Shown here piece after piece: positions 9,396 to 52,121 of a DNA stretch of 64,000 nucleotides. The notes under the pieces were generated by a model. That model did no database searches, was not told where the DNA came from, and was given only the letters and a program-made list of their open reading frames with translations. The stretch is taken from positions 186,001-250,000 of the forward strand of contig CACVBU010000871.1 of the NCBI GenBank assembly GCA_902728285.1, read 5' to 3'. This DNA is from Clytia hemisphaerica (taxonomy: Eukaryota > Cnidaria > Hydrozoa > Leptothecata > Clytiidae). Every line of letters begins with the position of its first letter. Position 1 is the first letter of the stretch. A program made the translations under genes and the position numbers.

Positions 9396-10069
9396 AACAT
9401 TATCTTATAGAGAAATAGCTACTTTTTTTCAAATATAGCTATCTATTCTAGAATTGATAGTTTCAACTTCTCAACATATCGCACTCTTTGATCTATTGTT
9501 TTTATAATTGGTTACAAAGGAGTGCCGCTCAGACATTTCTTTCCTTCATTCGTCTCTTATATCGCCATGGAAACGAACAATTAACCCAATTAGTTTTTTC
9601 TTCTCCTCTCTTATCATCACGTTAACAAAAGAGATAATTGTCTCTTTAATAGGAGAAGGATCTTTTATTTTTTAAAGAGACGACTTAATAGAATACTCTC
9701 TGTACTAGCTGGTAATTATGTCGCTCTGACAACCCCATTGTATTTTGATTTAAAAGAACGGCTTAATAAATAAGCATTCTCTGTTAATAAGAAATACATT
9801 GCTTTTAAAGAGTTATAACATTTTGATATTTTGTTTAGAATAAAAAGTTGTTTTTATAGATAACTGATACAAAGAGGGTGTGGTGGTCAACTCCGACAAC
9901 ATAAACGGGGGTGATGAGAATTACACATGACAACTTCGATACCAACAGGGAAAGTATTTTAATTACCAACAGATAAAGTAGCTCTTCGAATGTCCCTTTT
10001 TTGAATTTAACCCCCTGAAAATGGCGAATTTTCCTAGATTGCATGAATGTGTGAATTGCGAAAAAAAAC
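9396..10069 (+). repeat. Left terminal inverted repeat of the giant element (674 bp)
   Basis: Pairs with the reverse complement of 51431-52121 along its whole length with only scattered differences, by eye well above 95% identity. It contains a subterminal palindrome at 9628-9647 (AAAGAGA...TCTCTTT). Two degenerate direct copies of a CTTAATA...TTCTCTGT block (about 9682-9708 and 9762-9790) are possible transposase-binding repeats. Open frames in it are not protein-like. Confidence 0.92.
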
Positions 10070-10800
10070 CGCTTTCTTTTCGTTCAAATTTAAGTCCCAA
10101 ATCCCCTATGGTATGCTTATTAAAAAAAGACTGTATTCTTATGTAAAAATTACCTGGATCGTAAATTAATCCCTTGATCAGTATGCCAGTGATGTGTTTA
10201 AGCTAAACTTAATGAAGGTCAGCCTAAGTAAGTGTCAAAAGCGAATAGAACTGTCGTGATCGAAACGCTCTGGAAGTTAAGTAGATTAGATAGCTTTTGA
10301 TAGCTTTTTGTTTTTGATTGTTTTGAATTATACTATGTAATCAATCGGCTTGAGGAATACTAGAAACGTACATTAGACGTTCAAAAGACGTTGTTGCCTG
10401 CTGGGTGAGTGTGTTTTTTCTAAGAAGACCCTTCTCCATTGAGGCTTTCATCAAAAGAATGGTCAACGCGCAACCTTTTTGTTCTAAAAAAAGTTATACT
10501 TTCGGCACATTAACGGTTGTATGTAAATATACAAGAGACCGCCCATCATCGTTTTTAGAGGTAAACAAGTGCATGATATGCAGCAAGTAAAGATACGGGA
10601 CATAAATTCAACGGGGTCAGATGAAAAGATAACAGCGAAGAAGAGCTATTCGTAACTCAGAGTTAGACTTCATGAACAATTGGACAAAAAATGAACATTT
10701 TACGATATTTTATAAGAACATACAGTTATTTTTATACCATTACAATACCCCTCGTTTTAGTAACAGTGACTTCTTATAAAAGGGAAAATTACGTGTGAGA
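10070..10800 (+). other. Internal border region of the giant element; no clear gene
   Basis: A 43-codon frame from ATG 10458 to 10590 carries two Cys near its end (CMIC) but has no recognisable family, and I do not call it. The segment 10375-10407 resembles 11973-12004 (ACGTT spacing, then TGCCnGCTGGG). Extra TATAAAA-like strings lie near 10707 and 10775. Confidence 0.4.
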
Positions 10801-10806
10801 ACATTT

Positions 10807-10814
10807 TATAAAAG
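10807..10814 (+). promoter_or_regulatory. TATA box for the 10870 gene
   Basis: TATAAAAG lies 56 bp before the ATG at 10870, which would place the start of transcription near 10838. Similar boxes sit ahead of the genes at 12334 and 44370. Confidence 0.55.
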
Positions 10815-10869
10815 TCTCTTAACGGGTCAAAATATCTAACGAGTGTAGCAGGTGCTTAAATACACGTGG

Positions 10870-11376
10870 ATGCATTTGGGTTATTATTGTGTTTCCGTAT
10901 ATGGGAAATCATGCAAAAGTGTTTTGGCTTTTTTGGTACAAATGAAAAGAAAATCACGGTCAAAAGAAAAGACACTCCAATGGAGTGTTTTGAAAAATAC
11001 TGCAGGTAAAAAGAATTTCCAATCTAGAATCATTCGCAAAATGGATACGCTCGTGATAACATATAAGTTGCAGTATGCATACAAACATATTCCAAAGATA
11101 CAAAGGTTTCGTTCTTTTATCGAGGAAATCGTTATAGGGATCGAAAACCGTGTTTTTGAGCTACATGAGGAAAGTAAACTTTTTCCTGATGAAGCAGTGA
11201 TGAAAATTTTGGATAGCTTGTGTGTGTCTGTATATGATATCTCGGCTAATCTGAAAAGATCAAACCCCAATGAAAAATTGATAGAATTTGAGTACGAAAC
11301 GATTCTATTCTCACTGCTCAACATTCGAAAGTACTATCGAAATTTCAACTTACCTGTACCCCTTTTGGAAAATTAA
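10870..11376 (+). CDS. Hypothetical intronless protein, 168 aa
   Basis: Family not recognised. The open frame runs unbroken to TAA at 11376 and is cleanly preceded by a TATA box. An alternative start at ATG 10942 gives 144 residues beginning with a basic patch (MKRKSRSKEK), which could be a nuclear localisation signal. The remainder is predicted helical, rich in Ile, Leu, Lys and Glu, with IEEIVIGIENRVFELHEESK near the middle and YETILFSLLNIRKYYRNF near the end. No signal peptide or clear membrane segment follows the second start. Length, AT-poor codons relative to flanks and promoter position favour a real gene of the giant element; the opposite-strand frame (10884-11324) is treated as a shadow. 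Confidence 0.6.
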   Translation: MHLGYYCVSVYGKSCKSVLAFLVQMKRKSRSKEKTLQWSVLKNTAGKKNFQSRIIRKMDTLVITYKLQYAYKHIPKIQRFRSFIEEIVIGIENRVFELHEESKLFPDEAVMKILDSLCVSVYDISANLKRSNPNEKLIEFEYETILFSLLNIRKYYRNFNLPVPLLEN

Positions 11377-12277
11377 ATTGTATATAGTGTAAAAATATTC
11401 TTTTGTTTGGTTTGACTTCTGCGTTTTAGTAGAGGTCTCTATTACCTTGTGTTTGCCCAGGTTTAAGCGGTAAACAAAACTTAGCACTTATTTTTAACAA
11501 GGGTTAGTGAAAAAACTGGCCTACCTTTGTGGGCTCGTCATATGGCCTACTATGTTCACTACATGGGAACCCACTTACGATTTTTACTGAACTCGAAAGT
11601 CACCACCCTCACCTACGGATAGGCCCCGTAACGGAGTGTTGTCTCTCCACAAAGCTCGCCAGTCGGCCATAATTTATAATTTTGAAAAACGAAAATATTT
11701 TAGACTTTTTTTACTAGGGTCACGTAAATTTACGGAATTTTTAAAATTTTTAAAAGCACCACCACACAATTCTTCATGTATGTAATGCGAAGATTCTTTC
11801 TGAGTTTAGCAAAATATTTCAATATGGAAGTGTTAGTTGACTTCCAGGCTATAGCCTTTCTAATTGAATACAAAAAATCAAAAAATTAACGAAAGAAAAT
11901 ATTTTTGCGAACGACAACTGGCGTCTTTCCCTTCCCTTCTCTTCTTTTCTATTTCCGTTGAGAATGTTATTTGGACGTTGAAACAACGTTGTGTGCCAGC
12001 TGGGATACACATGAAATAACTATTGATCTTTTTGAGGGGCCAAGATTTACTAAAATAGATTTTCAGGTGTTAAAATGATAAGTTTGTTCGTTTAATCTCA
12101 CGTCACTTCCCTTTTGTATACTTTTTTTTTGGCTTACTTTGGGCATCGATAATGAATGTTTAATTTAAAATTATATTTTTCTTGACAGGTTTTGTTTAAT
12201 ATACCAATTTAGAAACAATATGTTTACTATTCATATTTTTTGTTCATTCCACCTGTTTATACACGTGACTAGAATTG
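11377..12277. other. Intergenic; GC-richer island at about 11515-11665
   Basis: The island includes CACCCTCACCTACGGATAGG and stands out in an AT-rich setting, but it does not fold into a tRNA or 5S rRNA that I recognise. 11973-12004 is a partial copy of the 10375-10407 motif and lies about 330 bp before the 12334 gene. Confidence 0.35.
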
Positions 12278-12285
12278 TATAAAAG
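12278..12285 (+). promoter_or_regulatory. TATA box for the 12334 gene
   Basis: TATAAAAG lies 49 bp before the ATG, predicting transcription start near 12308 and a 5' UTR of about 25 bases. Confidence 0.6.
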
Positions 12286-12333
12286 CTCGTTTTTTAAAAC
12301 TAATGCTTCATTATTCCGTGTTCATAAGCAAAG

Positions 12334-12555
12334 ATGGCCGAATTAATGAATCAATTCGTTTGGGATATTGGAAACGAACACGGAATACAATACTTCACAA
12401 GAATTATAGTGGAGATGACTCGCGTTGAAACCACCGTCACAGTCACAGCGTACGTCTACTTAATGCGAAGAATGCTAGATGGCGAAGTTCTATATATCAG
12501 CTGCATCGATCAATTTGATATCGAATTTGAGCAAGAAGTCGACGTTGTGAGCTGA
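12334..12555 (+). CDS. Hypothetical small intronless protein, 73 aa
   Basis: Family not recognised. It starts at ATG in AAGATGG, a good context (A at -3, G at +4), directly downstream of a strong TATA box. The protein is acidic at both ends, with a Thr/Val-rich middle (ETTVTVTAYVYLMRRML) and a tail FDIEFEQEVDVVS. ATTAAA at about 12600 could serve polyadenylation. The tight TATA-ATG-stop-polyA layout is unlike the spliced genes nearby and resembles compact viral or transposon genes. It might also be a fragment of a larger fold; the middle faintly recalls a cyclin helix, which I would not press. Confidence 0.55.
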   Translation: MAELMNQFVWDIGNEHGIQYFTRIIVEMTRVETTVTVTAYVYLMRRMLDGEVLYISCIDQFDIEFEQEVDVVS

Positions 12556-14802
12556 TTGTGAACTGGATATATAAACGGCTATTTTTATAGCCACAAATCT
12601 ATTAAAAAACAATCTGTAAAATATTTATCTTTCAAAATAGAATTGTTCTCCCTCGCTCTCCCCCTTTCACAAAACGTTTTATTGAAAGCATTTTCGTACA
12701 TTGGATCGAGAGTCCGTAATTCAGCCCTTCAGTATGATTTTTATTGACGTAGTTCCTCGTGCATTTGTGCGGTTTGTGTACTCTAAAGTACCTGTTATCA
12801 CAAGGTAATGCTAAAAATCTCCGAAAATTTATTTGTCTCGTTTTTCTCATAGTTCATTCAAAGAGAAAATGAACACAATTTTTTATAAGCAATCTCTGGC
12901 ATTGCTGAGAAGTTAAAAATCTAGTTTCTTGCTTAAAGCTTTTGAAGGAAAAAATCAAATTTTTAAAAAGTTTTGATTGTAGCTAAAAATACCTCAATTT
13001 AGCCGTTAAAACACACTTTGATACCAGCTAATCAAAAAAATATCAACTTTTTGTAAAAATTTTGAATTTATTTCTTATGAATGATTACTTAACCTCGTTG
13101 CCTTTTTGAGCCATTTCGAGGCCTTGGATCGAATTATAAAATTCCCAAAATACCTCAAAAGTCCCAAAATTTCAAGAAATCCCAATAAAACCCCAAAAAA
13201 TTCAAAAAATTCAAATAAATCCCAACGAATCCTAAAAGTCCTACCAATCCCTGAAAATCCCAAAAAAAACTCAAAAATCTTTCGCTCTTGTATACATGTT
13301 TTTTGAAGTGATTTACCTCTCAGGTGTAATTTGCTTTAATGAATGATAAATATTACAAAAATTCCAACTTCTTTCAACTTGTGGGTTTTATCTTATTCAC
13401 AACAACTGAGATCCACCCCTGGGTTTTGTTCTTCTATATGACTGCTCAGTAATAGAAAAATCATTAAATGATCGTTCTAAAAGTAATCACTCATACGACT
13501 TTTAAATTCAGATTTTTTAGAAAATTATCTTAAAAGGTTGCTGGGAGCACGAGTTTTGATGCTTTGATAAATTTAGAATCTCTTTCCGTTTTTCGAAAAA
13601 ATGGTATCCGTTAAGAATATCTATAATAGGTTTGGCAACCGAAAAGTCACTAAAAAGCTGTAGAGTATAAGAAAGATTTTCGTATTTATGCATATTCACC
13701 GGTGGGCTGAGGATAAAGCATCCCCCCCCCCAATAAAAAAGTTGGAATATTAAAGGGATTTTTTCCTACTACACTGTTCTTTTGGTCTCCATTTCAAATT
13801 TGAGTGACGTTTTCGAAATGTGCTCTGAATAATTTGCGAAATTGAACGCTTTATTTTTATCCTTTTTCTACATCATAATTTGCAATTAGTCAAATAGTTT
13901 TTGTCTCAATCAATAAAACATCGAAAACATCTGTTTAATTTTTGCTACAAAAAGAAAATGAAAAATGATAAGATTAAGTCAAAGTACTAGTTGCACCAAT
14001 TAATGCAATCCCTTATTATTCCAGCGGTTGGGAGCAGTGACTGCTGACCTATGAAACTAAGGGTCTAATTTTCGACAGTTTTAAAATAACTCTCATTTGA
14101 ATTTTTGATCAAAACACATGCTTGTTAATTTACAAAAAGATCTGAAAGTTTATATTTTCACATCTTTCAAAATTCGAAATTTCACATTGTTATAGCGCTT
14201 TTCAAAGTTCAGGAAATTTCAAATTTTTAGTCGCTAGAAAGACTAAAGATGAATTAGTTCTTAATTCTTAAAAAGATTTTTCGCTCTTAAAGGGTTGAAA
14301 TATTGAGGAAAATGCCCACTGTATGACATGTATTTTGAACTATCTTTGCTATGACGTAAATCGCTTATTAGATTTGTTTATTATTTTCAACAAAAGAGAG
14401 CGTTGTTTAAAAACGATTGGCACCTCTTTTAACACTGTGACGTCATTAGTGGATCGTGTTAAAATTAACTATTTTTGCACCTCGTGGCTCCACACCTCAG
14501 TTTCGAAATTAAAAAACAAATATCACAGCTAGTCTGGATACTAAATTGAATTTTTCTTTTGTAGGAGCCAATCAGAAGCCAGAATGAGATTATATGGACA
14601 ATACTAACAATGCTTTAAACCAAAGCCTTTTGTTTTTTACCACAGAGGTTTGGAAAGGAACTTGCTCACGTATTCAAACAAATCAAATGATATTTTTGGT
14701 CAAACACTTCTCATCATCATTGCATACGATACGATTCAAAAGCACGTACACTTTTCATTCTTCTCACACTGTCGATTCTTCATTTAATTTAATTGCTTCA
14801 TC
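12556..14802. other. Gene-free stretch upstream of the boule-like gene
   Basis: Contains a low-complexity CCCAAAA-rich tract (13140-13275), a run of ten C at about 13723-13732, and otherwise AT-rich DNA. A TGACGTCA palindrome lies near 14436. A frame at 14594-14839 was examined as an exon, but its splice phase fits nothing downstream. Confidence 0.4.
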
Positions 14803-16848
14803 ATGGAAATCGATATGGTACGTAAATTACTTTTATTAGAAATTCGACATTCGTTTTTGAGGGATTTTTTGGGTCTTTTAAGGGCTCTGACCATAGTGAA
14901 TTTTTCATAATTGCCGTGTTTAAAATGTGTTTTCTGACTGATGTAACCAACAAAACTATGACATGTTATACATTTTCAGTTAGACAAACTATTCCTGAAT
15001 CTGAAAATTCAAAAATTGCATTGAAAAAGTTTGATGAAGAAGAAAATGAAGACTTTTGCGAGGAAGAGTATTTCAACTTTGAAGAGCTTAGTTTCGGCGA
15101 TGAAAAAACATTTTGAAAAAACTTTCGTAGTAGATGGTGTATCTTTTATCGAACAATAAAAATTTTTGCGGAAAATTTTTGTAAATGCTTCTTTGTCTCG
15201 AAATCTTCAAAATAGTGGTTTTTCTTCAATTTTTCATCTTGATTATGCTTAAAAAAACAGTCATAACTGTTGACACATCTTTTTAGAAAAATTTTCCGCA
15301 AAATTTAGAAAAGTTCAATTCTTTGCGGACATTTTGAAAAGAGTTCGAAACAAAATAGTTAATTACCCATTAAAACTTAGCACTTTTTATAAAAGAAGAT
15401 GATGCAACATATTATTAACGTCTTTTTAAAGTTCATAACGTCATTTTTGCAATTAAATTCTTAATTACTCTTAAGAGATTTGATTAAAAAGCAATTTATA
15501 AACGCAATTCTTTGTTAAAAGTGTTAAAGAATCTAAAACATAACTTTTACGTTCAGATACTAAAATTAATTTTCTGACTATGGTCAGAGCCCTTAAAAGT
15601 CCTTCGAGGCGCTTCTTATTCTACACTCTTCTGCGTTGATTGCATCGAAATTTTAATGTGTGAAATTAGAGATTTTATTTGTTTTTATTCTTTTATAGGG
15701 CGAACACGCATCTATTCTTTACGGAACTCATTACCCGAATAAAATCTTTGTCGGATGCCTTCCCGCAAGAGTAAGTCAAATAATGCATATTTTTTCTTCC
15801 TCTCACATTCAGCACCAGACTACCTTATCATACTGAAACTTTTTTTATGAAATTAAAATTTGAGATACCGTTTTCTATTAGGGAAGGATAAATTTTATTT
15901 TGTGTAGCAAAACACTGTTTTTGAGCCTCTAGATGGGTTTGTTTTGAAGGCTTCGAAAGTGTTTCAATTAGTGATGTTTGTCTGGTTTGTAAACTTTTTA
16001 TTTATTCTTTAGATAACAGCTGCTTCTCTCGGCGAATATTTTGGCTCTTTTGGCGAGGTCATCGAGGCAAAGGTCGTATTAGACGATGCCAAGAAATCGA
16101 AACGTTTTGGGTTCGTGTCTTTCTCCCGTGCTACCGATGCCAAAACTGTTTTATCGGCTGGAGATTTTTACATGCTGGGAAAACGCATCGTTGTTGGACC
16201 TGCTGTAAAAAGAGAGGTTGCTATGATTTTTGCTTCGTTGATCTTTCAAATACACTTGAAAAGTCATAAGGGGTAAATTACTCTGTTAAAGGCCCTTTAC
16301 GCTATGTTATGTCAACTAGTATAGTTCTCCTCCATGTTTGCCCTTTGCATCTGAGTTTGGCTGTAACCAAAACTTCAACATCAACCGATTTTTTTATAAG
16401 AGTATCTAAAATTTCTATGACTATAATAATGATGATGACTATAATTTAAAACTTTTTCTTTTATGTTATTCAGTTCAAGGAGCGTGTAGCAGACGAGAGT
16501 GTAAAGATCGTGATGGCACAGGAAGCGGTCATCGAACACGAAATGAGAAGGAGCAATGAACACCGACAAAGCAACGACGTTTATAATCCACCAAGGCGTT
16601 TTATTTACCGCCCGTTGAAACAAGAAAAAGATGATGATAACATGGAGACCAAAACCTTGACAGACTACCAGCAAGATGACGTGAAACCACCTTGCAATTG
16701 CAATGATGCTATTGCTCTTCCAAACCCGCCTCAACAAACATCTCAACGCCCTCTCCCATCGAATTATGGTGCATTTTACTATCCACAGCAGCCACGGCAT
16801 CAACAACTATTGTATTTTGATCCAAATTCCGGATTTTTCTATCATTAA
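14803..16848 (+). CDS. boule-like: Boule/DAZL-like RNA-recognition-motif protein, 221 aa
   Basis: Boule/DAZ proteins bind 3' UTRs and promote translation in germ cells. Exons 14803-14817, 15699-15770, 16013-16216 and 16474-16848, all phase 0, give 222 codons with the stop. One RRM spans residues about 18-97: RNP2 IFVGCL (21-26), RNP1 KRFGFVSF (59-66), and the family-typical VGPAVKRE (90-97, compare IGPAIRK in Boule). The canonical RNP1 Gly is replaced by Arg (KGYGF to KRFGF). The C-terminus is Pro/Gln/Tyr-rich and ends GFFYH. No DAZ repeat is seen. The five-codon first exon is the least certain part, although its donor ATG|GTACGT and phase fit. Intron 1 holds a 725-bp inverted-repeat element. 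The gene lies wholly inside the giant element, so it is likely captured cargo or a host gene trapped in it. Confidence 0.82.
14875..15599. mobile_element. Inverted-repeat element with 23-bp TIRs in boule-like intron 1
   Basis: The left tip CTTTTAAGGGCTCTGACCAT then AGT is matched exactly in reverse complement at 15577-15599. No longer target duplication was found. The interior contains the acidic reading frame at 14959-15116. Confidence 0.7.
14959..15116 (+). CDS. Possible acidic terminal exon inside the intronic element
   Basis: After acceptor TTTTCAG the frame reads RQTIPESENSKIALKKF followed by a Glu/Asp-rich tail with FNFEELSFGDEKTF and a stop, then AATAAA at about 15155. Joined to the boule-like start exon through an alternative donor (C|GTAAAT at 14823) it would encode about 51 residues starting MEIDMV. 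Codon use looks coding-like, but no family is recognised, so this is a tentative alternative product or remnant. Confidence 0.3.
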
Positions 16849-16989
16849 AGTTGTTTTTTTATATTTTTTGTAATTTTGTTGGTTTTTTACAAGGTTTGAT
16901 GTAGTAGGTGTATTTAAAACTTGTATACGTTTTTAAGTATGTTTGTATGTATATTTTAAGAGTATTTTTATTGTCCTATAGTTCTATAT

Positions 16990-17545
16990 TGTCCTGTAAA
17001 TTGTTTAGTCTTACCACGCCCATTTATGTAAATTTACTGACTTTGTAGGAATATTTTTATTGATTGATGCAACATACACGTTTTTTACAAGAACAAATCA
17101 AACAAACACAAGGCTTCAATTGTCAAAATATTTTAATATAAGTTAAGAACATATTTTAAGGCTTCACAGAAAATTGAATAAAAATACTCAAAAAATGGTG
17201 AAAATAAGAACATCAAGGCTTCAAAAATGTAGGATGTCCTTATAAGAAAACGTGTACATTTATTGACACATTGCATATATTTTATTTTTGTTGTACTTTG
17301 TAAATTGTTTAGTCTTACCACGCCCATTTATGTAGATTTATTGATTTTATAGGAAATATATTTTTTATTGATTGATGCAACGAACATTTTATTTTTACCC
17401 ATTTATCTAGGCTTATTTTTTCAAATAAAAACGATAGATTTATTGATGTTATAGGAAATATATTTTTTATTTATTGATGCAACGAACATTTTATTTTTAC
17501 CCATTTATCTAGGTTTATTTTTTCAAATAAAAACGATATATTTCA
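16990..17545. repeat. Tandem and dispersed repeats downstream of the boule-like gene
   Basis: A block starting ATTGTTTAGTCTTACCACGC occurs at about 16999 and 17305. A unit of roughly 95 bp containing ATTGATGCAACGAACATTTT is repeated twice from about 17365 to 17540. Between them, 17085-17255 is a copy of a dispersed family marked by AAGAACA...AAGGCTTC. The rest of the interval to 18590 shows no gene. Confidence 0.6.
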
Positions 17546-17559
17546 TAAAATAATAGTGT

Positions 17560-18590
17560 CGATATGCATAATCAATTCACGGTGACCATGGCAATGTCTC
17601 CTTCTAATCAATTTGTTAAAATGCAAAATTCTCTGCAAGCAAAATTCCTTTCTTGACAGTTTCGAACGATTAAATCGTTAATCTTTCTTTAATTCGAACT
17701 TAAAAAAGCAGTCCATCTTAATACCACTCAATAAGTTATTTCTGAAAATGGTCCATAGTGAAAGGGACCACAAAATTTGATCTAATTAGAGAAAGTTTCG
17801 AATAGCGGAGTGTCGAGTTAGAGAGATTCTACTGTAATTGCAAAGAAACCTTACAACGATCAACTGTAAAGGTTTGACTTTAAAAACTAATTTTTTCAAG
17901 GCTCTTGCCGTCATTTAAAGATCCCTTACTCCCATCCCTTCCCTGGGATTGATTAAAATCTTCTTCTTTGGGGGTAAGCGAGGGGATGGAGGCACACAAT
18001 AGTTTTTAAGCTTTTCTGATCCGAAAATTTTAGCCATTTTAGCCAAACACTTATTCCTATTAATAATTCTACTATTAATTTTGACGAAGAAAACTTTCGG
18101 GATGCACTCAAATATTTTGGATCATCTCAGTAGAAATTTTGAATAGGTATTTGGTCGAAAATTTCCAAACAATCCAAAGTTCTCAAATAAAACAGGAAAT
18201 GAAATCATAGAGCTTTTCAAGAATTTCATTAAATATTTTTGCTTAAAAATCTAGACATGTAAAAAATTAGTGGCCTAATAATATTAAAGTTGTTACAATC
18301 ACTCATCTAATGGGAAATAAAAACATGTTCCTTCATTTACTTTGATTTTGAACAAACACCTAATGACGTAGTGCAAGAGATGAAATTACTAAAAAAGTAT
18401 CGTAAAACTTTCAAAAGACCCCGCAAAAAAATCAAAAGCAAAAATGGAAAACATTACAAAAAACACACTCAAAATTAGTTAACATTGGCGAGTTAGTTTA
18501 GTGGAGCAATTGTCATAGGTAAAACCTCTGGCGCAAAATTCACAAAACAAGTAATTACTTTCCCTAGAAAAACATAAAAATAAATAAAAT
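17560..18590. other. Gene-free spacer between the convergent boule-like and DUF7869-like genes
   Basis: AT-rich sequence with no open frame showing a family motif, and no inverted-repeat element recognised. Confidence 0.4.
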
Positions 18591-23873: not shown

Positions 23874-23959
23874 CCATTGATCAAGACCCTTGTTGAGCCT
23901 GGAACAATTATCGTTGTAATAGTTACTTTTGGCCCTTTGTTAATGGAAGAAAAGACTTT

Positions 23960-39381: not shown

Positions 39382-39407
39382 ATTATTTTATATAATAGGG
39401 CATGTTA

Positions 39408-39605
39408 CGAAATTCGTTGCATTTTTGTCCATACTACATAATATTTCAGCTCGACCTAGAGACTAAGCCTTCTTTTTTCAGTATATGAATTTTACCGAGA
39501 TAGATTTCAAGGGGGAATTCAAAATAAGTAAAAATGTATTATTTCATGGCCTCTAAATCCAGCTGAAATATTATGTGTCGGATGGACAAAATGCATCGAA
39601 CTTTG
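39408..39605. repeat. Short inverted-repeat element, arms about 45 bp
   Basis: The left arm contains TGCATTTTTGTCCAT and ATAATATTTCAGC; the right arm (39560-39605) is the reverse complement. It starts 27 bp after the stop of the coiled-coil gene and may lie in its 3' UTR. Confidence 0.55.
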
Positions 39606-39609
39606 AGAT

Positions 39610-41202: not shown

Positions 41203-41436
41203 TTACAGATATTTATTAAGTTCATCTTCAAAGTATAGGTTTATGTCGTGTGGATTGTGAGCATTTTCATTTTTCTTGCTTTTATTTATAAAGTCTATTA
41301 TCTTTAGGAGCGTGTGTTTTTGTTGTTGTGGGTGTGGTGTATGTGTTGGTCGAAGTGTGAGTTGGGGAAGTGGTGTCAATTGGTATAATGGGAGTTGTAA
41401 TTGGTCTACAATGCGTTTAACTTGATCTTGGTTCAT
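41203..41436 (-). CDS. Hypothetical small protein, 77 aa
   Basis: ATG at 41436 lies 16 bases after a strong acceptor (TTTTCTCTCTTTAG), so it may be the coding exon of a gene with a 5' UTR intron. The protein starts MNQDQVKRIVDQLQLPLYQL, has a Pro/Thr/His-rich middle (RPTHTPHPQQQ) and a helical end (LLKIIDFINKSKK; LYFEDELNKYL). Composition looks protein-like rather than random. The family is not recognised; a LINE fossil lies 500 bp upstream and it could be related debris. Confidence 0.35.
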   Translation of the reverse strand: MNQDQVKRIVDQLQLPLYQLTPLPQLTLRPTHTPHPQQQKHTLLKIIDFINKSKKNENAHNPHDINLYFEDELNKYL

Positions 41437-41920
41437 TTTTGTATTATTTACCTAAAGAGAGAAAATTTTTGCGAAATTCAATTTCATGGTTTTGTGTGCG
41501 TAGGGTGTGCCTATCGTGAAATTGAATTCAGCGAATCACACTAAGCTCTAATTATTTTGAAGAACAAACCCCTTATTTTGAAGTTTTAATGATTGATTCA
41601 ATTTTAGACCGAACATGCTCTCAACCGAGAATTTAAATTCTGTCTCATTTTTAAGTGCATGATGTCCAAGATATGCAAATAAATATAGAAAATAACTTTT
41701 TTACAGCAAACCATCAACTTCTCCAGTCTGAACAATATCTTTAAATGACGAGTTATTAAGAAATTTTACTATTCCCTATTCCTAGGTCGAATAGGGTGTG
41801 ATCTGTTTTGGTGGACCGAAACATCCTCACACCGAACTCTCGTCAATAAATAGAATAAAAACCTGGGTAACCCAGTCTCTCGTAAATAATATTAAATAAT
41901 ATCAATCTATCACATTTCCA

Positions 41921-42178
41921 TTAACGTTTTCTTTGCAACGCGAGATTGCAAAATCTATCAAGAGTGACATTTTCATTTTCAATAATCAAATCAACCAACG
42001 ACTTAACGGAGCGCCCTCTCCTTGTATATATGTCATCATTGAACGTGAGCTTTTTCACATTTCTGTGAACATTCATGCGAATAACATGTGCCAAGTAACT
42101 ACGTTGCTGATTTCTAATAAAAACACTAACATCTTTCGTACCACATATTTCATGTAAACAAACATTGTTCAATACCAT
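41921..42178 (-). pseudogene. LINE ORF2 C-terminal fragment (RTE-like)
   Basis: Reads IRNQQRSYLAHVIRM, then KLTFNDDIYTRRGRSVKSL and a terminal FCNLALQRK. This matches, from memory, the extreme C-terminus of RTE-type LINE proteins. Truncated at the 5' side. Confidence 0.6.
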
Positions 42179-44310
42179 ACGAAAATCATTCTCCTTTTCG
42201 CGTTAACATGCTTCATACCATTACGAACCATACGCCTCAAAAACATGCGATAGGTATATGTAAAGAAAAGAATTATGCTGAAGGATGGGGTTCTCACTCT
42301 CTTTTCAAAATAACAACCAGTAAAATTTTGTTGAGGCTCGGCTGCTAGCCCGTGGAACGATATTCGACGTCAAGGGGGGCGAACGAAAAAAAAAAGGGGG
42401 AAGGAAAAAAAAGGGGGACGAGAAAGTTTGCACATCTATCGAGTTAAAAAAAAATGAGATAAAAATCAGCCCGTTGTCAGCTGATTTCGTGCTGATTTTT
42501 ATTGTAAAATAGACTTTTGATACCCCTGTCTCAATTTTCACTGATTTTAAGATCTTTTATGAAGAAATAGCTGTTTGGCCCATATTCAAACCTTTTAATT
42601 GAAAAAATACCTTTAAAAACGTTTGTTTGGTCAGTATCTTCGCCAAGTTTTTTTTTGTTTGATAAATGAGTGCATTTAGCATTACCCCAGACTGAGAATT
42701 GAACTCAGTTGAAACTACCAAGCTAGGGTTGTTGTTGTTGTTAAAAAATGAGTGAACAAGAACAAAAAGCGTGTAGGTCAGTGAATTTAGAGAGCTAGCC
42801 CCTTTAGACATTTCTAACTTGACAAAATGGTAATCTAGCTCTGGAAAAATAGTAACCATACACGCTTTTTTAATGAGAATGATAGAGTACTTTGTACTTC
42901 CAGGGCCGAGCTTCGTTTGTTGTCATCACTAGAAAAAAGTTTAAAATTCTTCAGTTCTCGAGCCTGTGTTTATTGCTGAACCCATTGTTGACTGGTTTTC
43001 TTACATTTGGTTAGGGTCATAGAGGTGATGCAGGTGGTACACCTAATAAACTACCTAAAATTTTGGGTCTTAAAGCTGGCGGTATAATTTGAAGCTCGTT
43101 CATAGGTTCATAGCATAGTCTTTTGGATAGCTCAGAGTCTCCTCTTCGTTCACCAAATTTAATGACTATTAGTTCACTCGTTAATAAGATAAAAAACCCG
43201 TCAATATCTCTATAATTTTGGTAGTTTTTTATCTTTAAACTCCGAATTTCGGTGAAAAGACTAATTTTTGAAATCTTTTCTATTGGATCACAAAGATAAA
43301 TACTGTTCTGGCAATTTAGACCAAAAATGAGGATTTCAAGTTCAAGCCTTACAATAGGGCTTTACCCTCTTATATAGACCTTGTCGGTATATGCCGACAT
43401 CGGTAGGTAAAGGGTTTAAGGGGGGAAATTGTAATCTTTTAAAATTCAGATTTTGAAATTTGAATTTTATTTATTTTTCAAATTTCAAAATTTTAAAAAT
43501 GTTTGGCATTTTCGTTACTTCGATTTATTTCTATGAAAATTTTCTTTCAAGAATTATTGAATAGATTTTCCGTACTATGTTTGCGAGGTGACGGGTATGT
43601 CCGAACCAAAAATCGAAAATTGACCCTTAGAGAGAAAATTCTTTGCCATTTTTGGGACCCTTTCAGAACGTAGATCGTTTTTTTGTGACCCTTAGGGAGA
43701 TTTGGTGGTCTGAAAAAGGTACCGTTATCGCGTGCACATACCTGGACCCTTATTTGCCTAAATACCCTAGCCTTTCTTGGCATTTTTAGCTACGAGTGAA
43801 CTAAAAACCACCAAATTTGGTCCTGATTTACTAAATTTTGTCATCTAGCGAGTCGATGTGAAGTTTACTACCTGACAATCCCTCCATCAATCCAGTCAGG
43901 TCAGCGCAGTCTCAATATGTTCTTATTTTATCCTTATTTTCAAGCTATTTTAGGACAATTTTTGCTTTGTATCTATTCCTAGTTTTCACAAAAAAGCAAA
44001 AAAGGCCTTCCAAATCTTGGGACTGTTCTTAACTTGTTCTTAACTTTTGGCCATTTTAAGGCCTCATTGTTCTTATAAAATCGTTCTTATATAAAAAGGA
44101 ATGTTTTCCAACCTACAGCGTTATAAACTCGTGCAGCAAGATAAATGAATTTTATCCCGAAAATGTGTATTTGAACTAGTGAACATGTGTGAAAAATGCG
44201 ACTGTTGACTTAACGTACAACTGACACGGGTTTGAAAAAGTATTTTTGGTTGGTAAACAGAGCAGGCACATTTTCCTGCTTTCTTACTCCCACTATGAAG
44301 GAGTGTCAAT
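42179..44310. other. Gene-free; repeat remnants
   Basis: Includes a partial relative of the CCCTTAGAGAGA elements (43575-43770, with ACGGGTATGTCCGAACC) and a copy of the AAGAACA/GGCCTT family (43918-44100). The minus-strand frame 42557-42859 lacks any motif and is not called. Confidence 0.4.
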
Positions 44311-44318
44311 TATAAAAC
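44311..44318 (+). promoter_or_regulatory. TATA box for the F-box gene
   Basis: TATAAAAC lies 52 bp ahead of the ATG at 44370. A second TATAAAA at 44345 is too close to serve. Two short upstream frames (ATG 44351, and ATG-TGA at 44358) precede the start and could dampen translation. Confidence 0.5.
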
Positions 44319-44369
44319 ACTCGTTCGTAGAGATAAAATGCTATTATAAAATGGCGCGATGTGAAATCA

Positions 44370-45269
44370 ATGGCTACAGTCAAAATGAACACTCTTCCGA
44401 AAAGCATTATCTTACAAATCTTTTCTTTTTGCGAACCGAAGGAGATTTTTGAGAGTATTTCTAAAGTTTGCACCAGATGGTATCATTTATCAAATGACCG
44501 TTCTTTGTTGTTAAGACTGAAAAGTCTATCTGCACTCGATGGAGACAAAGCTGTGTTCGACTTTGTTAGAAGACACGAAGGAGCGTGGATCGTTTCAATA
44601 GAAGTTGATAGTCGTAGATGCCTTGGTAAGCCTTGCACAAATCATGGTATTTCTTTTCTCTGCTCAAACTGTCCCAATCTCCGAAGGCTTATTTTGTGCG
44701 ATACACAAGTGGATGATGTTGGACTCCAAATGATTGGAAAGTTTTGTCATTCCTTAAAACATTTGAGAATTAGAGTAAAGGAACCATGTGAGACTGGTAT
44801 CAAGCTATTATTAGAAAAATGCACTAAATTACGTGAAATAATGCTCAACAAAATGAAGCTGAGAGGGATATGTTATAATACTAGGGTAACAGCTTTGTGT
44901 GTGGCACCATGTGCACGGTTTCTTCAAATTTTGTCAATCAAACGATGGAACATTGTGGACCAAGATTTAGAAAGAATCTCCGATAGTATGGATTCCTTGA
45001 GAGAACTTTGGGTGGATGGCTGTATGTACTTGACAAGCTATGGAATTTTTAAGTCAATTCCCCGTTTTAAACACTTGCATTGTTTGAACGTGGTAAACAC
45101 AAGGTGCATCCAAACGGACTCAGAGCTTGCACGTCTTGCTTTAGTTTTACCTAAAGAGTTCACGCGTCTCATGTTGAGCCCAAGACCTCGACAAATCACA
45201 GATGCTGGCAAACGCAGATTTAGAGAACTCTTACCTGAATGTGATCTTCTCTCATCTTTCATCAGTTGA
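44370..45269 (+). CDS. F-box/leucine-rich-repeat protein, 299 aa, intronless
   Basis: The expected role is substrate receptor of an SCF ubiquitin ligase: the F-box binds SKP1 and the repeats bind the target. The F-box spans residues about 7-45 (LPKSIILQIFSFCEPKEIFE; CTRWYHLS). Leucine-rich repeats follow, e.g. CPNLRRLILCDTQVDDVGL, FCHSLKHLRIRV, KCTKLREIMLNKMKL, MDSLRELWVDGCMYLTSYG. ATG 44370 (MATVKMNTLP) is chosen because it is the first ATG of the frame and leaves a short 5' UTR after the TATA box. ATTAAA at 45284 may be the polyadenylation signal. Single-exon structure differs from most animal FBXL genes and suggests retro-copy origin or adaptation to the element. The frame is fully open, so it is probably functional. 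Confidence 0.82.
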   Translation: MATVKMNTLPKSIILQIFSFCEPKEIFESISKVCTRWYHLSNDRSLLLRLKSLSALDGDKAVFDFVRRHEGAWIVSIEVDSRRCLGKPCTNHGISFLCSNCPNLRRLILCDTQVDDVGLQMIGKFCHSLKHLRIRVKEPCETGIKLLLEKCTKLREIMLNKMKLRGICYNTRVTALCVAPCARFLQILSIKRWNIVDQDLERISDSMDSLRELWVDGCMYLTSYGIFKSIPRFKHLHCLNVVNTRCIQTDSELARLALVLPKEFTRLMLSPRPRQITDAGKRRFRELLPECDLLSSFIS

Positions 45270-47105
45270 AGCAGATAGTTGGATTAAAATCAGTTATTTA
45301 TATAACAACAAATCTACAAAAAACAACAATAACTGTGTAGTATTTTCATTTCCCTTTGTGTTTTGTGTTCTTTTGATCAGCTTAAAACGTGAGTATTAAT
45401 TACTAAAATCAACGAAATATAATATACTCTTCGGTATCTAATAGACGGGGGATCTGGAATAAGCAGACACCCCCCGGCTGTGAAAAGTTATTTCAGAAAC
45501 TAATTGCCAGGGGGAGGGGGTTGGAATAAGAATGTCCCGGGTGGAAAATCACTAAATAAGGGGCCGATATACCACAATTTTAGCTAGGGCCGTAAATAGA
45601 CCCGTGAACGAAAAAAAAAAAAAAAAAAACGAAAAAAATCACATTTTGTGAAAATTAATATTTGTCATGATTTTTTGCCTTTTTCAAGAATTGAGACTAA
45701 TTTCTTTCAATCATATAATACAGGTGGATTTGAACGGTTTTGAAAAAAAACGCGAAAATTAGTACCTATAAGACCTTCTTAAGCCATTTAAGGGTTCATG
45801 CAATGACACCATAGAAATTTAAAAAGTTTTCTAAGTTTAGGCATGTTTTTTAGCCATACTATAGCCCAAATGTTCTCATAAGCTGAGAAAAAAACACACA
45901 ATCATTTATGAACGATTAGTATTAGGAAAATCAATAAACGATCGTTCTAATAGTGATTAATTCATTAATGGTAGATGGTAGGTTTATCAATGTGTCTAAA
46001 AAGATCCACTTCGAGCTTCGTTTGTCGTCATCGCTAGTTTCTCCTTAAAACGACAATTTCGATCTCTGTCTTCTGTCTTTTTTGCTGTAAAAAATGTATA
46101 ATGTTTGTGCAAAGTTTCTTATAAAAAAGCTTGGACACACAGACAAACAAACGGCCAAGAAAGCGTGTATTGCTTCACAATTAAGAGTATAATCGGTTAA
46201 TAGGTGTTCAGGCTATAGAACGTCACTTAATTAATGACAAGTTGGGTTGCAAGCTTCTCATTGGTTCTGCATTTATTTAATTTTTTTTACTTTTCTTGTG
46301 TTCTAAATTTTATACTTATTTTTATACGACGACCAATGAGGGGCTGGCTACCCTCAACCCTAACTAACAACTGAATGCCTTCTTCGAAAAAGCTCAATCA
46401 AAACAGATGTGACATTGCCAGCAAGATCCTGTTAAGGGAATCATTGTAAAAGTCTTTGAAAAATATTTTTAAGAGCAAAATCTAATTTAACTAGACGAAT
46501 TTTGCAAAGAAGTACAGTATTTATTCGAGGAACCTTAAGACTTACGTTTATTACGATTTACCAACTTGACTTTTCAGTCGAAAATTTTAAAATATTATAC
46601 TTTCGGTCAAAATTTTTTCTCCACGCCGAATCATACAGAAAGGAAGCCTCATTCCTCCGAATAGCAATAAACAATAACAAGATGTTTTCTAAAGAACATC
46701 AAAGTTTTTTAAAGCCTTGGAAAGAATGCTAATAAACTACCTTGAGCCTCGAGGTATGCTTAGAATATTCTTGATTTTTAAAGAAATTTGAGCTTCAGTA
46801 TTTATGAAAAGACTGCCACCAGTGAGCCTGTCAGTGAACCTGCCACCCAAAAATATTGATCAGCCGTAAGTCAACAAATTCTATTATAAATGACATTGAA
46901 ATATCTTTGACTATGTTCAAGTTTTGATGCACTCTTTTCCTATCAAGACTTTCTTCAGTAATGGTAACTTTTTAAATTACAATATAAACGTCGTCACTCA
47001 GCCAGGCTGGAAGTTTGTTTCTATTTTAAGCATCAAAACATTGGGAATGTAACGTCTTAAATGACTTTTTGAACGTTTTAGTGACGTTTCGAACGTTTTC
47101 ATCTC
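45270..47105. other. Gene-free spacer
   Basis: Contains a C/G-rich patch (45445-45545), a 20-bp poly-A (about 45611-45630) and short repeats shared with 13455 and 42900 (GATCGTTCTAA; GAGCTTCGTTTGT). No coding exon was convincing. Confidence 0.4.
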
Positions 47106-47111
47106 TTTTAC

Positions 47112-47297
47112 CCGGGCTGGAGCTATCATATGGGAAAAAGCCAGCCCAGCTTGCTGGGATCTCACTTCTTTTTGCCGATATGCCGTTTCTCATATGATAG
47201 GTTTTTCTTTTTACGAAGAAATTTTAAGGATGCCGAAATCCCGGCAAGGCGGGCCAGCCTGGTTTGCCGGGCTGGATTTTTCCATGTGATAGGGCAA
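47112..47297. mobile_element. Small inverted-repeat element (CCGGGCTGGA...CTATCA)
   Basis: The left end carries CTATCATATGGGAAAAAGCC and the right end its inverted equivalent, with TCATATGATAGG near the middle. About 186 bp, with several CCAGCCC/GGGCTGG blocks. Confidence 0.5.
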
Positions 47298-47513
47298 TAT
47301 TTGACAGCTCCCTGAAGTTACACCGTAGGATTAAGGTATTTTAAAACATTTCAAAAGTTTTTTACATGATAATATTCCACTCGCGATTATCTTTATAACA
47401 ACAGTACAAAATTGCAAACTTATTCGAACTTTATCAACGCAGGGTTGGTACGGCACGTCCAAAACGTAACTTAACTTTTTCCCACCAATAGCACCCATCC
47501 CTGTATAGTCACT

Positions 47514-47903
47514 TATATACCAAAAGAAGCGTATTTGGACGTAGAACATGTTCCCACCTGTGCCTAGTTAAAAAATTATCAATAAAAAAACCTTTTGTGA
47601 CGTCACAATGATGACGTACGTACTTAAAAGCTAGAGATCAAAATAATTTTTGCCAAAATTTTGATGACGTCAGCAATAAATGCAAAAACGTAAGTTTTGC
47701 AATAAAATGCTGACAAAAGCACTTTTCAAAAAATTTTCGATAGATATTTAAATAATATCTTTCCCTGGTCCAAATTTTATGGTATTCACTGCAATAGTTC
47801 TTGGTTCTTGAGATATTGCAATTTTAAGTTTACACTGAGTAAAAAATTGTAACTAGGCACAGGTGCATATGTTCTACATCCAAATACGCTTCTTTTGGTA
47901 TAT
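47514..47903. mobile_element. MITE with about 60-bp inverted ends, 390 bp
   Basis: TATACCAAAAGAAGCGTATT and CACCTGTGCCTAGTT at the left are matched in reverse complement at 47845-47903. The interior includes two TGACGTCA/GATGACGTCA motifs near 47600 and 47663. Confidence 0.7.
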
Positions 47904-48512
47904 AAACAAACGACCATACCGGGAAATCAACTTTCTTCCTTTTCGACCATTTCTGGTCAACGAGTGATCCAAGAAACATCCAAATTTGACCCTGTTCTCC
48001 TTTATTCTGTCCTCTAGTGAATTGATTTGAACGTTATTCCACTGGGTACCTTTCCGTCAATTCAGTATATGACTGCTTTGATCCTTATCACCTACCCCCT
48101 ATGCCACCGCCCACCCCACCCTTCTAAATTGCGCGGCGCCGAAGGCCCGCAAAAGAAAGAGAAGACTCTGAACTATTTCAAAACGAGCTGTGAACGAGCT
48201 TTTAACTTCTTCTAGTTCCGGAGATATAACGATTTAAAATTTGAACCATTCAATTTTCTAAAAAATCTTAGAAAAAAAGAGCTTGGCACTTAAAGGGTTA
48301 AGGGAACTAATTTTCGCAGTAACTAGTTTTCACAGGAACCAATTGTCGCGAGAACTAATATTCGCATTTTGGGTGTCTACTGGGAAAATTAGTTCCCGTA
48401 AAAATTAGTTCTCTTGGTACATAAGAAGCCTTGAACCTTGGGTTTTTGCTAAAAAAACTTGTACTTTCCTTGGACACTCATTAAAAAATTTATTTAAAAC
48501 TTTATTTTCTAG

Positions 48513-48868
48513 CCAAGGAGTTACTAACACCGTTCATTGGAAAGGGGACACCAATAACGAATATTATAGACTATTAAATTATAGTCAAGGTAAATTAAAT
48601 TTCTGATTACATTTTATGTATATACAAATTTCTGCAATTCGCACGGAAAAAGGCAGATTTCCGCCTTTGAGTGTCCACCCTCGAATTAACTCCTTTTGTT
48701 ATCGATTAAAACATGTCAATCTGTTTTTCTTTTTCAGTAATGTGCTGGCCTCGACCACTTAATCCTCCACGTCAACCTTTGTCTTATCCTTCACCACTTC
48801 GTTTACTTAATCCTCCACGTCAACCTTTGTCTTATCCTCCACCACTTCGTCACTACCCATCTAAATGA
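48513..48868 (+). CDS. Last two exons of a Pro/Tyr-rich protein (5' part not found)
   Basis: Exon 48513-48589 follows a good acceptor (TTTATTTTCTAG) and reads QGVTNTVHWKGDTNNEYYRL before donor CAAG|GTAAAT. Exon 48738-48868 continues in frame (phase 1) with VMCWPRP and two 16-residue repeats LNPPRQPLSYPxPLRxx, ending HYPSK and TGA. The DNA repeat is 48 bp. The Pro/Tyr-rich tail recalls C-termini of RNA-binding proteins but shows no domain. No upstream exon or start could be assigned between 45270 and 48512. Confidence 0.5.
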
Positions 48869-48899
48869 ATAATTGTAAATAATTTGTAAATAGTATTTC

Positions 48900-49195
48900 A
48901 ATTCTCACAACCCTTTCTAACTGACTCGCTGGGACCCTTACCCACTAACCTACTGGAAAATTGGCCTAAAAATCGTTCTTGGGGGGAAAAAATTAAAGTT
49001 TTTGCCCCAAATTTCGGGGCAATCTTATCCCTGATGTGAATTTCAGTGTAGTTTTACCATTCCGCTTAAAAAAACAATACCACAAAAATCCCCCGACATT
49101 AAAAATTGGGAAATATCAATACTTCCATTAAAATTCATTCCCTCATTTCTATCCCCACAGGCTAAAAAAAACCCCAACAGGTCTGTGAGATTATT
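48900..49195. mobile_element. Degenerate ACACCCCC-family MITE
   Basis: The left end CTCACAACCCTTTC and the right CAGGTCTGTGAGA, with CCCACT...CTGGAAAA inside, match the 28701 family in outline; tips are eroded. It starts 32 bp after the stop of the preceding gene. Confidence 0.45.
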
Positions 49196-49379
49196 ATATC
49201 ACTTTTTAAAAAACTAAAATATTGTACAAATTCCATTATATTTTTTACTTTATATCATCTTTAAAAGTTTTTTTAGCATCCTACATTTAACTTTCCGAAC
49301 ATTCTTCGCAAGACATGGTTGAGGTTATTTTTCGATGGGACCCCTTACAGTACCACAGGAAAAGTCTACCAAAATAAGT

Positions 49380-49685
49380 ACACCCCTGTGTAACAGACCC
49401 GGTGGGACCCCCGCGCCACTGAGAAAATGAGCTTAAAATTCGTCCCCGGTTGAGGAAATTTCCTCAAATTTCGTCCCCATTAGGAAAAATGGAGTATTAC
49501 TATCTCCACTGTAAAGTTTTGGTCTGAATTTGCCGTCCCCACTGGATTTTTTGGACTGAAAACAATGGAAATAAATATCCCAGTTATAAAATTGAAAGGG
49601 ATTCTTAATCCCCACTGGGATATTTGTTCTCAATTTTATTCCCGCTGACCATGAAATTTCCACCAGGTCAGTGAGACAGGGGTGT
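49380..49685. mobile_element. ACACCCC-family MITE, diverged
   Basis: Left ACACCCCTGTGTAACAGACC; right GGTCAGTGAGACAGGGGTGT. About 306 bp. A further loose right end (CAGGGGTGT, about 49790) suggests a second overlapping copy. Confidence 0.55.
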
Positions 49686-49799
49686 ATAATTTAAGATCAC
49701 TCAGCTTCATTTCTTCACTGGGGCTATTATAGAGCATATTTTTTACCGGGTTATTCACTGGGGCGTATCTGACCGGGTCACTGATTCAGGGGTGTAATA

Positions 49800-51298
49800 C
49801 ATATGAAAAAACCCGAAAGACACAAAATATCCTGGAAAACATCATATATAAATAATATTATAAATATCAATATTCTAGGTCGGTCACCTGTTTTGTTGCT
49901 ACTGTACAGACCAGAATGTCAAATTTGTTAAGATCACAAATTGGGTTATTTCGGGTTAAACTTGTTTCTGATAGCTGATTTGTCGAATAAAAACATTTAC
50001 TTACGAAAAAAGTTTGGTCCCATGGGTATTTGGTACTTTACTGACGGGTCTGTAATATACACTTTGACCCCCTTCCAGAATAAAAGAGCTACTAAAGCTT
50101 TTGACTTGAAATTTTAACCTATGATAGGTCTTGACCAGACGATATACAAAATTTCAAGCCAGTCGGTTACGTAGGCCGTATTTTATGGACCATTCAGTAT
50201 TTTACCCAAAATGCTCACTTTCTGGAAAACCACCTGTCCAATTTCACTGAGAATTTGACATTAAGCTTCTATCATCACTACTTGTCGCTGGTTTAAATTT
50301 CAAGTCAATACCTTATTTCTATCCAGAGATATAAATTTTGGGCCTAAATTTGGCAATTAGAGCATGCATTTTTGGGCCTGTAAAATACACACATATAGCA
50401 GGTCAAAAGAATTTACCTCCATCCCCAAAATTATATGTCTTCAAAATTATATCTCTTAAGGAGTAGCAACAAAAAATTTGAGTAAAAAATATGAATGTGA
50501 AAAAAGTTTGAGGGTTGTCCTATTTTCAGCCTTTTTAAAGGATGGTGACGTCCTTGTGACGCAATGACGTCATAAATGATGGCGAAATTTTGCTCAGAGT
50601 TGACGATAAATATTTTGTTCACACTGGCAAAATTGCAAGTCGTTTGAATAAGTATTTCTAAAGTTGTCAAATATAGACCCCCAAAGATGCACGAAGGGTT
50701 AATATAATAAAGAATTTATTGAGACATTTAGCTTCTTTTTAAGTTTAATACTGCTTCAGATTTGGTTTAACATTGTTTCTTCATTTTTATCACAAAAAAT
50801 CAGAAAAGCCTTTAGCCTCTAATTCCTAGATATTTTGTATTTGGTTATAAATACTGCAAAATAAACGAATCTGGCAGGTGGCAGAAAAAATTGACACATC
50901 TAAAAATCATTTATTAAGTTGAGTTTATATGCAAAATTTCAAAGAAAATTATGAAGGTGAAAAAAAGTTCGACGGGGGTCCTTTCTTGACATTTTCAAAA
51001 TTTGTTGACATCATCATGTCATGATGACGTCATTAGAAATGACAAAATTTTGTCAGAAAGTGTCAATCCACATTCCCCACACACTGGCAAAATTTCATGA
51101 CAAAATTCAAAGTCATTGAAGATTTTCGTTCAGGAACCTTACTCTGTGGGAGCTGACTACCCCCCCCCAAGAAAAAATAAAAAAAAAATACAATTTTTTG
51201 TGAATGACAAATTTCAGAAGAATCTTGAAGATCATTCTAAAATAAATCCAAAACATAAGAGTGTCTTTTCTTTAACAGGCCCCCAGTTAACCAATGTT
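49800..51298. other. Gene-free; degenerate direct repeat of about 470 bp
   Basis: Segments around 50495-50650 and 50955-51115 share the order GTTTGAnGGnGTCCT, TGACGTCA, AAATTTTG, CACACTGGCAAAATT. No coding frame with a family motif. Confidence 0.4.
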
Positions 51299-51430
51299 CA
51301 CTCATTCACGCTTTTTTTGCAATTCATGCATACACGAAATCGGGGAAAAATCGTCATTTCACGCAATCACGCCAACAATATTCGCATTTCACGCATCACG
51401 CAGAGGACCAATTTTCAGACATTCACCCTA
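51299..51430. repeat. Partial duplication of the inner end of the right TIR
   Basis: CATTCACGCTTTTTTTGCAA...ATTCATGCA...GGGAAAAATCGTCATTT parallels the TIR's own inner end (51420-51482). The inner border of the right TIR has therefore been tandemly duplicated. Confidence 0.6.
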
Positions 51431-52121
51431 GTTTTTTTTCGCGATTCAAACATTCATGCAATCTGGGAAAATTCGCCATTTTTCAGGGGGTTAAATTCAA
51501 AAAAGGGGCATTCGAAGAGCTACTTTATCTGTTGGTAAAATACTTTATCTGTTGGTAAAATACTTTACCTGTTGGTATCGAAGTTGTCATGTGTAATTCT
51601 CATCACCACCGTTTATTTTGTCGGAGTTGACCACCACACCCTCTTTGTATCAGTTATCTATAAAAACAACTTTTTATTCTAAACAAAATATCAAAATGTT
51701 ATAACTCTTTAAAAACAATGTATTTCTTATTAACAGAGAATGCTTATTTATTAAGCCGTTCTTTTAAATCAAAATACAATGGGGTTGTCAGAGCAACATA
51801 ATTACCAGCTAGTACAGAGAGTATTCTATTAAGTCGTCTCTTTAAAAAATAAAAGATCCTTCTCCTATTAAAGAGACAATTATCTCTTTTGTTAACGTGA
51901 TGATAAGAGAGGAGAAGAAAAAACTAATTGGGTTAATTGTTCGTTTCCATGGCGATATAAGAGACGAATGAAGGAAAGAAATGTCTGAGCGGCACTCCTT
52001 TGTAACCAATTATAAAAACAATAGATCAAAGAGTGCGATATGTTGAGAAGTTGAAACTATCAATTCTAGAATAGATAGCTATATTTGAAAAAAAGTAGCT
52101 ATTTCTCTATAAGATAATGTT
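51431..52121 (-). repeat. Right terminal inverted repeat of the giant element (691 bp)
   Basis: Reverse complement of 9396-10069. It is 17 bp longer mainly because ACTTTATCTGTTGGTAAAAT is tandemly duplicated at 51521-51560. Scattered single-base differences (for example CCACCGTTTATTTTG here against CCCCCGTTTATGTTG on the left) show the two ends have begun to diverge. Confidence 0.92.

Follow-up and report, generated by a model that had tools for sequence, protein, structure and literature searches.

The 64,000-nucleotide stretch of the Clytia hemisphaerica genome analysed here (hereafter the window; C599:186001-250000 of a host assembly of 417 Mb in 951 contigs) carries a unit of 42,726 bp bounded by long terminal inverted repeats (TIRs). 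With a probability of roughly three in four, this unit is interpreted as a giant TIR DNA transposon that encodes a DDE/D-type transposase of the DUF7869 family and carries resident passenger genes. The interpretation is based on the structure of the insertion site, the recurrence of the unit elsewhere in the genome and the predicted fold of a relative of the DUF7869 protein.

Insertion into a LINE reverse transcriptase

The unit lies within the reverse transcriptase of a long interspersed nuclear element (LINE) and is flanked by a 4-bp target site duplication (TSD). The features of the insertion are as follows.

8403..9395, minus strand: target LINE reverse transcriptase, 3' part, interrupted (reading frame and joined-site search)
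9392..9395, no strand: left TSD, GTAG (flank comparison and empty-site search)
9396..10069, plus strand: left TIR, starting AACATTATCTTATAGAG (end alignment and tree of ends)
51431..52121, minus strand: right TIR (end alignment and tree of ends)
52122..52125, no strand: right TSD, GTAG (flank comparison and empty-site search)
52126..53103, minus strand: target LINE reverse transcriptase, 5' part, interrupted (reading frame and joined-site search)

The borders of the unit are exact (9396 and 52121). Its TIRs, 674 and 691 bp in length, both start AACATTATCTTATAGAG and, aligned as 9396-10069 against 52121-51431, show 96.2% identity with gaps and 98.5% over the ungapped columns. GTAG is present on both outer flanks, a 4/4 match with a chance probability of 0.0055 at the base composition of the window; the TSD length is read from this one insertion. 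Joining 300 bp of each flank and removing one GTAG restored a single open reverse transcriptase frame of 200 amino acids that runs through GVPQGSVLGPLLFLIMIQDID. A search of the host genome with this joined 600-bp site, in which the best 40 of 306 candidates were scored, yielded at least 24 uninterrupted full-length (600-base) matches among the 44 matches listed, the best two of those listed being 100% identical. The LINE copy of the window itself was split in this search into 1-300 and 297-600, each half at 100%, with the four-base overlap corresponding to the TSD. As the joined site occurs uninterrupted elsewhere in the genome, the unit moved in one piece into a young LINE that was still intact; the flanks show no visible decay relative to other LINE copies, so the insertion is recent, and the 1.5% difference between the two TIRs probably predates it. 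An earlier sequence-only reading of this DNA had described near-identical inverted ends of ~680 bp, GTAG on both outer flanks, flanks representing the halves of one reverse transcriptase and a single 42.7-kb transposition into a LINE with a 4-bp TSD, all of which is borne out by the direct comparisons, the restored frame and the uninterrupted paralogous sites.

The copies of the element elsewhere are single-ended, which might suggest an assembly artefact joining two end-bearing contigs. Such an artefact is very improbable, as a precise TSD, a restored reverse transcriptase frame and uninterrupted paralogues of the site are not expected from a random join; moreover, both ends lie on one 1.08-Mb contig and there is no N anywhere in the 64-kb window sequence. 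A misassembly confined to the deep interior, away from these junctions, would be less improbable.

Other copies of the element in the host genome

A search of the 417 Mb with the terminal 23-mer, allowing up to three mismatches, gave eight matches (none with the reversed control). The window accounts for two of these, and C9, C212, C261, C564, C860 and C97 have one apiece. The search thus gave six further end-bearing loci, but no second two-ended copy. The outer flanks of the window unit and the five aligned copies (C261, C860, C212, C564 and C97) are mutually different. Comparison with these copies divides the unit into the following parts.

10282..24578, plus strand: module B, which includes the DUF7869 gene (parts common to C261, C860, C212 and C564 at 94-100%)
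25071..34578, no strand: interior stretch unseen in the other examined copies, with dispersed repeats and a LINE fragment (genome comparisons)
34579..52121, plus strand: module A and the adjoining X, the right part of the unit (order as in the sampled C97 stretches; partly in C212 and C564)

C261 shares 10426-14179 and 14331-19336 with the window, and C860 shares 10282-13758 and 17716-18307. The sampled stretches shared by C97 are 52120-49929, 46650-44150 and 40400-34579, while those of C564 are 52121-51013, 47756-47312, 46650-44150 and 43086-41032, joined to a short piece of module B (window 13758 to 11081). C212 follows the window from 52121 to 40396 and then, discontinuously, from 10282 to 24578, where its contig ends. 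Within module B, 22913-23758 and some short stretches were seen in none of the other copies examined. Overall, 31,825 of the 42,726 bp (74%) are found again, at 94% identity or higher, in one or more of the six other loci; the TIRs are thus not always found around a different short interior without shared genes.

On the simplest reading of these alignments, which is not proven, a left end would be present in C261 and C860 and a right end in C97 and C564, and C212 would be a recombinant whose parts meet sharply at window position 40396. An inversion-isomer model, raised because C261, C860 and C212 carry module B opposite to the orientation expected from the right end of the window, was rejected.

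The DUF7869 gene and a second element family

The gene content of the unit was assessed from 160 open reading frames (ORFs) of at least 58 amino acids, of which 159 remained after low-complexity filtering and the 150 longest (59 amino acids or more) were scanned against Pfam, PHROGs and NCBIfam; this set omits ORFs starting in 32.1-34.5 kb, and at a Pfam threshold of E 0.1, 25 of the 28 matched families were listed. The principal gene of module B is the following.

18851..23157, minus strand: predicted transposase gene, DUF7869 (PF25273), 7 exons, 622 amino acids (spliced model, Pfam)

The exons of the model (23157-22832, 22252-21964, 21306-21185, 20938-20809, 20431-20273, 19965-19801 and 19528-18851) form a stop-free frame and all its introns are GT-AG. 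The best database relative of the encoded protein is P0001, also of Clytia hemisphaerica, whose predicted fold is RNase H-like and of the DDE/D transposase type; its fold relatives include Mariner/Mos1 and the retroviral integrases, with sequence identities of 4-14% in those Foldseek rows. Acidic residues are conserved in the window protein, which qualifies as a candidate transposase with a predicted RNase H-like DDE/D core. DUF7869 occurs in many animal phyla. Given the predicted DDE transposase fold of the DUF7869 relatives, the unit is most likely, in mechanistic terms, a TIR transposon of the known cut-and-paste kind that is unusually large and carries passenger genes, and the enzyme that moves it would apparently be an undescribed cut-and-paste transposase carried by the unit itself. 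The suggestion of the sequence-only reading that this may be a new class carrying gene cargo is therefore borne out only in part, as the DUF7869 gene, which that reading overlooked, points to the known TIR cut-and-paste kind.

A DUF7869 search of the genome returned 34 rows and revealed a second element family. Its loci on C735 and C342 are ~97% alike over ~13 kb, and on C735 (2210564-2223700) the similar region is bounded by inverted repeats of ~465-487 bp that are 90-92% alike, with the termini AACTCTTTTTCAGATTAAATGGG, the left end being one T shorter. The C735 locus encodes residues 281-429 of P0001 at 99.3%. The outermost right end is lost from the C342 copy, and a 326-bp derivative on C594 keeps both termini. 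The TIRs of the second family are unrelated in sequence to those of the window unit; DUF7869 lies inside the TIRs in both families and the termini of both start with AAC. A ratio of nonsynonymous to synonymous change (pN/pS) of 0.47 for the second-family transposase was dropped, as several of the aligned stretches cross introns. Further DUF7869 matches were found on C635, C142, C418, C180, C230, C827, C455 and C473. Those at C635:553550-561276 are two exons matched at 49-50%, with one orientation and a spacing of 7.3 kb, which may represent a tandem pair of another DUF7869 element.

An F-box gene, probably resident

The right part of the unit contains the principal passenger gene.

44370..45269, plus strand: F-box/leucine-rich repeat (LRR) gene, single exon, 299 amino acids (Pfam F-box-like 2.6e-8, LRR_4 2.4e-7)

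Five genomic copies of this gene, 98-100% identical, are all (5/5) stop-free over the matched part; the gene is of full length in C599, C564 and C97, and residues 1-296 are present in C140 and 7-299 in C212. The next match in the genome is 33% identical, and a database search with the protein gave two weak relatives among 842 candidates. Taken together, these results suggest that the F-box/LRR gene is probably an old resident of the element family rather than a recent capture from the host. The fifth copy (C140:26220-28011), stop-free as stated, lies on a contig on which the terminal 23-mer was not found.

Evidence against the proposed reading and alternative explanations

Several observations weigh against a single element moved by its own DUF7869 protein. 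The single-ended state of the other copies is the weakest point: two ends at one locus are found in the window only, the six other end-bearing loci have one end each, and C9 consists of one 109-bp end without interior. The one-ended copies are mostly 97-99% identical, which is odd for truncated or single-ended loci; C212 leaves its contig, and the others appear truncated as far as they were read. Deletion, abortive transposition or assembly trouble may each lie behind this. The ~9.5 kb at 25.1-34.6 kb, probed in part, were seen in no other copy examined. The DUF7869 gene is broken in C212 and five of the six codon differences between C212 and the window alter the amino acid, so that purifying selection on it is not demonstrated. 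No other copy shows the stretch that holds most of exon 1, and a sub-threshold match to the histone 3' stem-loop lies inside this exon (23126-23080, minus strand). For the predicted fold of P0001, Foldseek gave no row at E 0.001 or better, and a profile search of PDB sequences found no transposase, its matches being Nipped-B-like (1.4e-10, at C-terminal profile positions 574-691) and RFX5 (0.12). The F-box copy of C212 is without its first residues. Finally, clean TSDs are absent from the second family, the flanks being TTAT/GTTA on C735 and AATT/AATA on C594.

The first group of observations would also suit a composite macrotransposon, in which two truncated, inverted copies of a smaller element mobilised, by their outer ends, everything between them including host DNA. 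Besides the single two-ended locus and the stretch at 25.1-34.6 kb, this explanation draws on the tree of ends, where the left TIR groups with the ends of C261 and C860 (support 0.983) and the right TIR is nearest to that of C212 (99.1%), and on the left subterminal DNA of the window unit, which differs from that of C261 and C860. However, modules A and B occur together in C212 and also in C564, where their relative orientation matches that of the window; this argues that both belong to one element, and the sampled stretches of C97 keep the order of the right part of the unit. A composite origin is regarded as unlikely.

It is rather improbable, in turn, that the DUF7869 gene is a passenger or nested sequence and that the ends were moved by another transposase, since lost or acting in trans. 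The link between the DUF7869 protein and the TIRs is a predicted one and the second family gives no clean TSD, which would allow for this alternative; nevertheless, two families with unrelated TIRs both hold DUF7869 inside their TIRs, the fold predicted is of the DDE enzyme type, and the Pfam scan of the 150 ORFs, with 25 of 28 matches listed, shows no other transposase family among those listed.

Comparison with known systems

A typical cut-and-paste transposon measures a few kilobases, and the carriage of large cargo in animals has mostly been attributed to virus-like elements. Teratorn, a very large cut-and-paste animal element, is a fusion of piggyBac and a herpesvirus with a TTAA target and herpesvirus genes. 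Polintons have a TSD of 6 bp and P-type elements of 7-8 bp, mariner has a TA target and short TIRs, the Sola transposase is of the DDD type, and the fungal Starships are giant cargo-carrying single units moved by a tyrosine recombinase.

Against this background, the giant TIR transposon proposed here resembles the Starships as a giant cargo-carrying unit, but has TIRs and a predicted DDE enzyme instead of a tyrosine recombinase. It is similar to Polinton/Maverick elements in its TIRs and size class (Polintons measure 15-25 kb and can reach 40 kb; PMC6431247, in part) and differs in its 4-bp TSD and in the absence of DNA polymerase B (PolB), packaging ATPase, protease and capsid genes among the listed matches. 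Neither these nor an rve-type integrase, nor any herpesvirus hallmark gene, was found among the listed families of the 150 ORFs, in agreement with the earlier remark that the genes of known large animal DNA transposons are not seen here. An integrated large DNA virus or a Polinton/Teratorn-like element, suggested by the size near 43 kb, the long TIRs and a single weak match to Herpes_UL52 (E 0.035, in one ORF), is therefore largely refuted and extremely improbable; a row at this E-value is expected by chance when 150 ORFs are scanned. The TSD of the window unit is GTAG and not the TTAA of piggyBac/Teratorn and Kolobok, and the herpesvirus genes of Teratorn were likewise not found in the unit.

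The 4-bp TSD, read from one insertion, points to Sola among the named superfamilies, Sola being compared here by its published description. Sola2 elements share a TSD of this length, but in amoebozoans it is AT-rich (AWWT-type) and the TIRs measure 12-21 bp (PMC3627910, in part), whereas the window unit has GTAG and TIRs of 674/691 bp. Galileo/Foldback elements of the P superfamily also have long TIRs (PMC3688188, in part), but the 25 Pfam families listed, of 28 matched, for ORFs of 59 amino acids or more include no THAP domain or P-type transposase. KolobokP carries terminal repeats of similar length (~660 bp) around a DDE transposase; its repeats are, however, direct and Kolobok targets TTAA (PMC9587614, in part). 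No giant cnidarian DNA transposon of this type was found described in the literature searched (few subscription papers and no Repbase), which is not proof of novelty.

Probable mechanism and implications

In the mechanism envisaged, the DUF7869 transposase would bind and pair the ~0.7-kb inverted ends and cut the element out, which would then be pasted at a 4-bp staggered cut to produce the GTAG duplication. The F-box protein may help the element, for example via altered host ubiquitination, rather than being inert cargo. It may be speculated that the large size is tolerated if the ends hold the whole recognition signal, and that the loss of one end in most copies reflects inefficient movement of long DNA. 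A wider proposal, tentative and on balance doubtful, is that DUF7869 defines an undescribed, animal-wide DDE/D transposase superfamily with long-TIR elements, whose giant member has kept its F-box gene long-term under selection, possibly for degrading host or transposase proteins, as an animal counterpart of the Starships with a cut-and-paste enzyme. If the main interpretation is right, this recent movement of 42.7 kb with an open passenger gene in a laboratory jellyfish would mean that an ordinary DDE-type enzyme moves gene-sized cargo in animals, and a function would be given to a Pfam family found across many animal phyla, a question testable in a living model animal.

Other passenger sequences

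Two further coding features were recorded in module B.

10939..11376, plus strand: conserved ORF, no assigned function, 145 amino acids (unchanged in C261 and C860, disrupted in C212, retrieved in part in C564)
16013..16276, plus strand: RNA recognition motif (RRM) exon; its segment occurs in C261 and is missing from the corresponding place in C212 and C860

DNA 69-77% identical to window 11008-11478 occurs at six loci (C558, C899, C74, C898, C622 and C515), in some of them reaching ~100 bp past the stop of the 145-amino-acid ORF; these are possibly related elements, judging from the matches. PABP-type families were matched by one ORF in the scan, presumably the RRM exon.

A 73-amino-acid ORF (12334-12555, plus strand) was considered as a histone-like passenger and rejected. 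A histone 3' stem-loop (RF00032; 12572-12617, plus strand) scores 34.4 bits (cut-off 34) and lies 16 nt past the stop of this ORF. The sequence of the stem-loop is the same in C261, C860 and C212; the ORF itself is intact only in C860, has a changed start in C261 and is broken in C212. The likeness of this ORF to H2B is faint (z 5.1 by shuffling, 8 comparisons) and failed the control, three other ORFs among 648 scoring as high or higher. It has no Pfam or PDB histone match, and its single-sequence structure model is all-beta, with a predicted local distance difference test score of 84 in the best of five models and 73-43 in the others.

Possible window-specific stretch and neighbouring repeats

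The interior stretch at 25071-34578 contains a LINE fragment (32430-33951, minus strand), named from its reading frame, and a high-copy dispersed repeat lies at 26749-27105. A genome search with 24.5-32.3 kb was swamped by this repeat (11,647 first-look candidates, best 40 scored), and a probe of 29.7-31.2 kb matched the window itself and a dispersed repeat only (best 40 of 3,467 candidates scored). The unit may have accumulated a window-specific stretch with nested repeats.

Outside the unit, two inverted arm pairs, 4903-4987/7994-8079 and 4995-5240/7710-7950 (87-89%), adjoin the target LINE and look like a separate TIR element of ~3.2 kb. On the other side, a large near-palindrome occupies 55219-55800, with 55490-55664 self-inverse at 88% and further inverted arms at 55219-55363/55667-55800.

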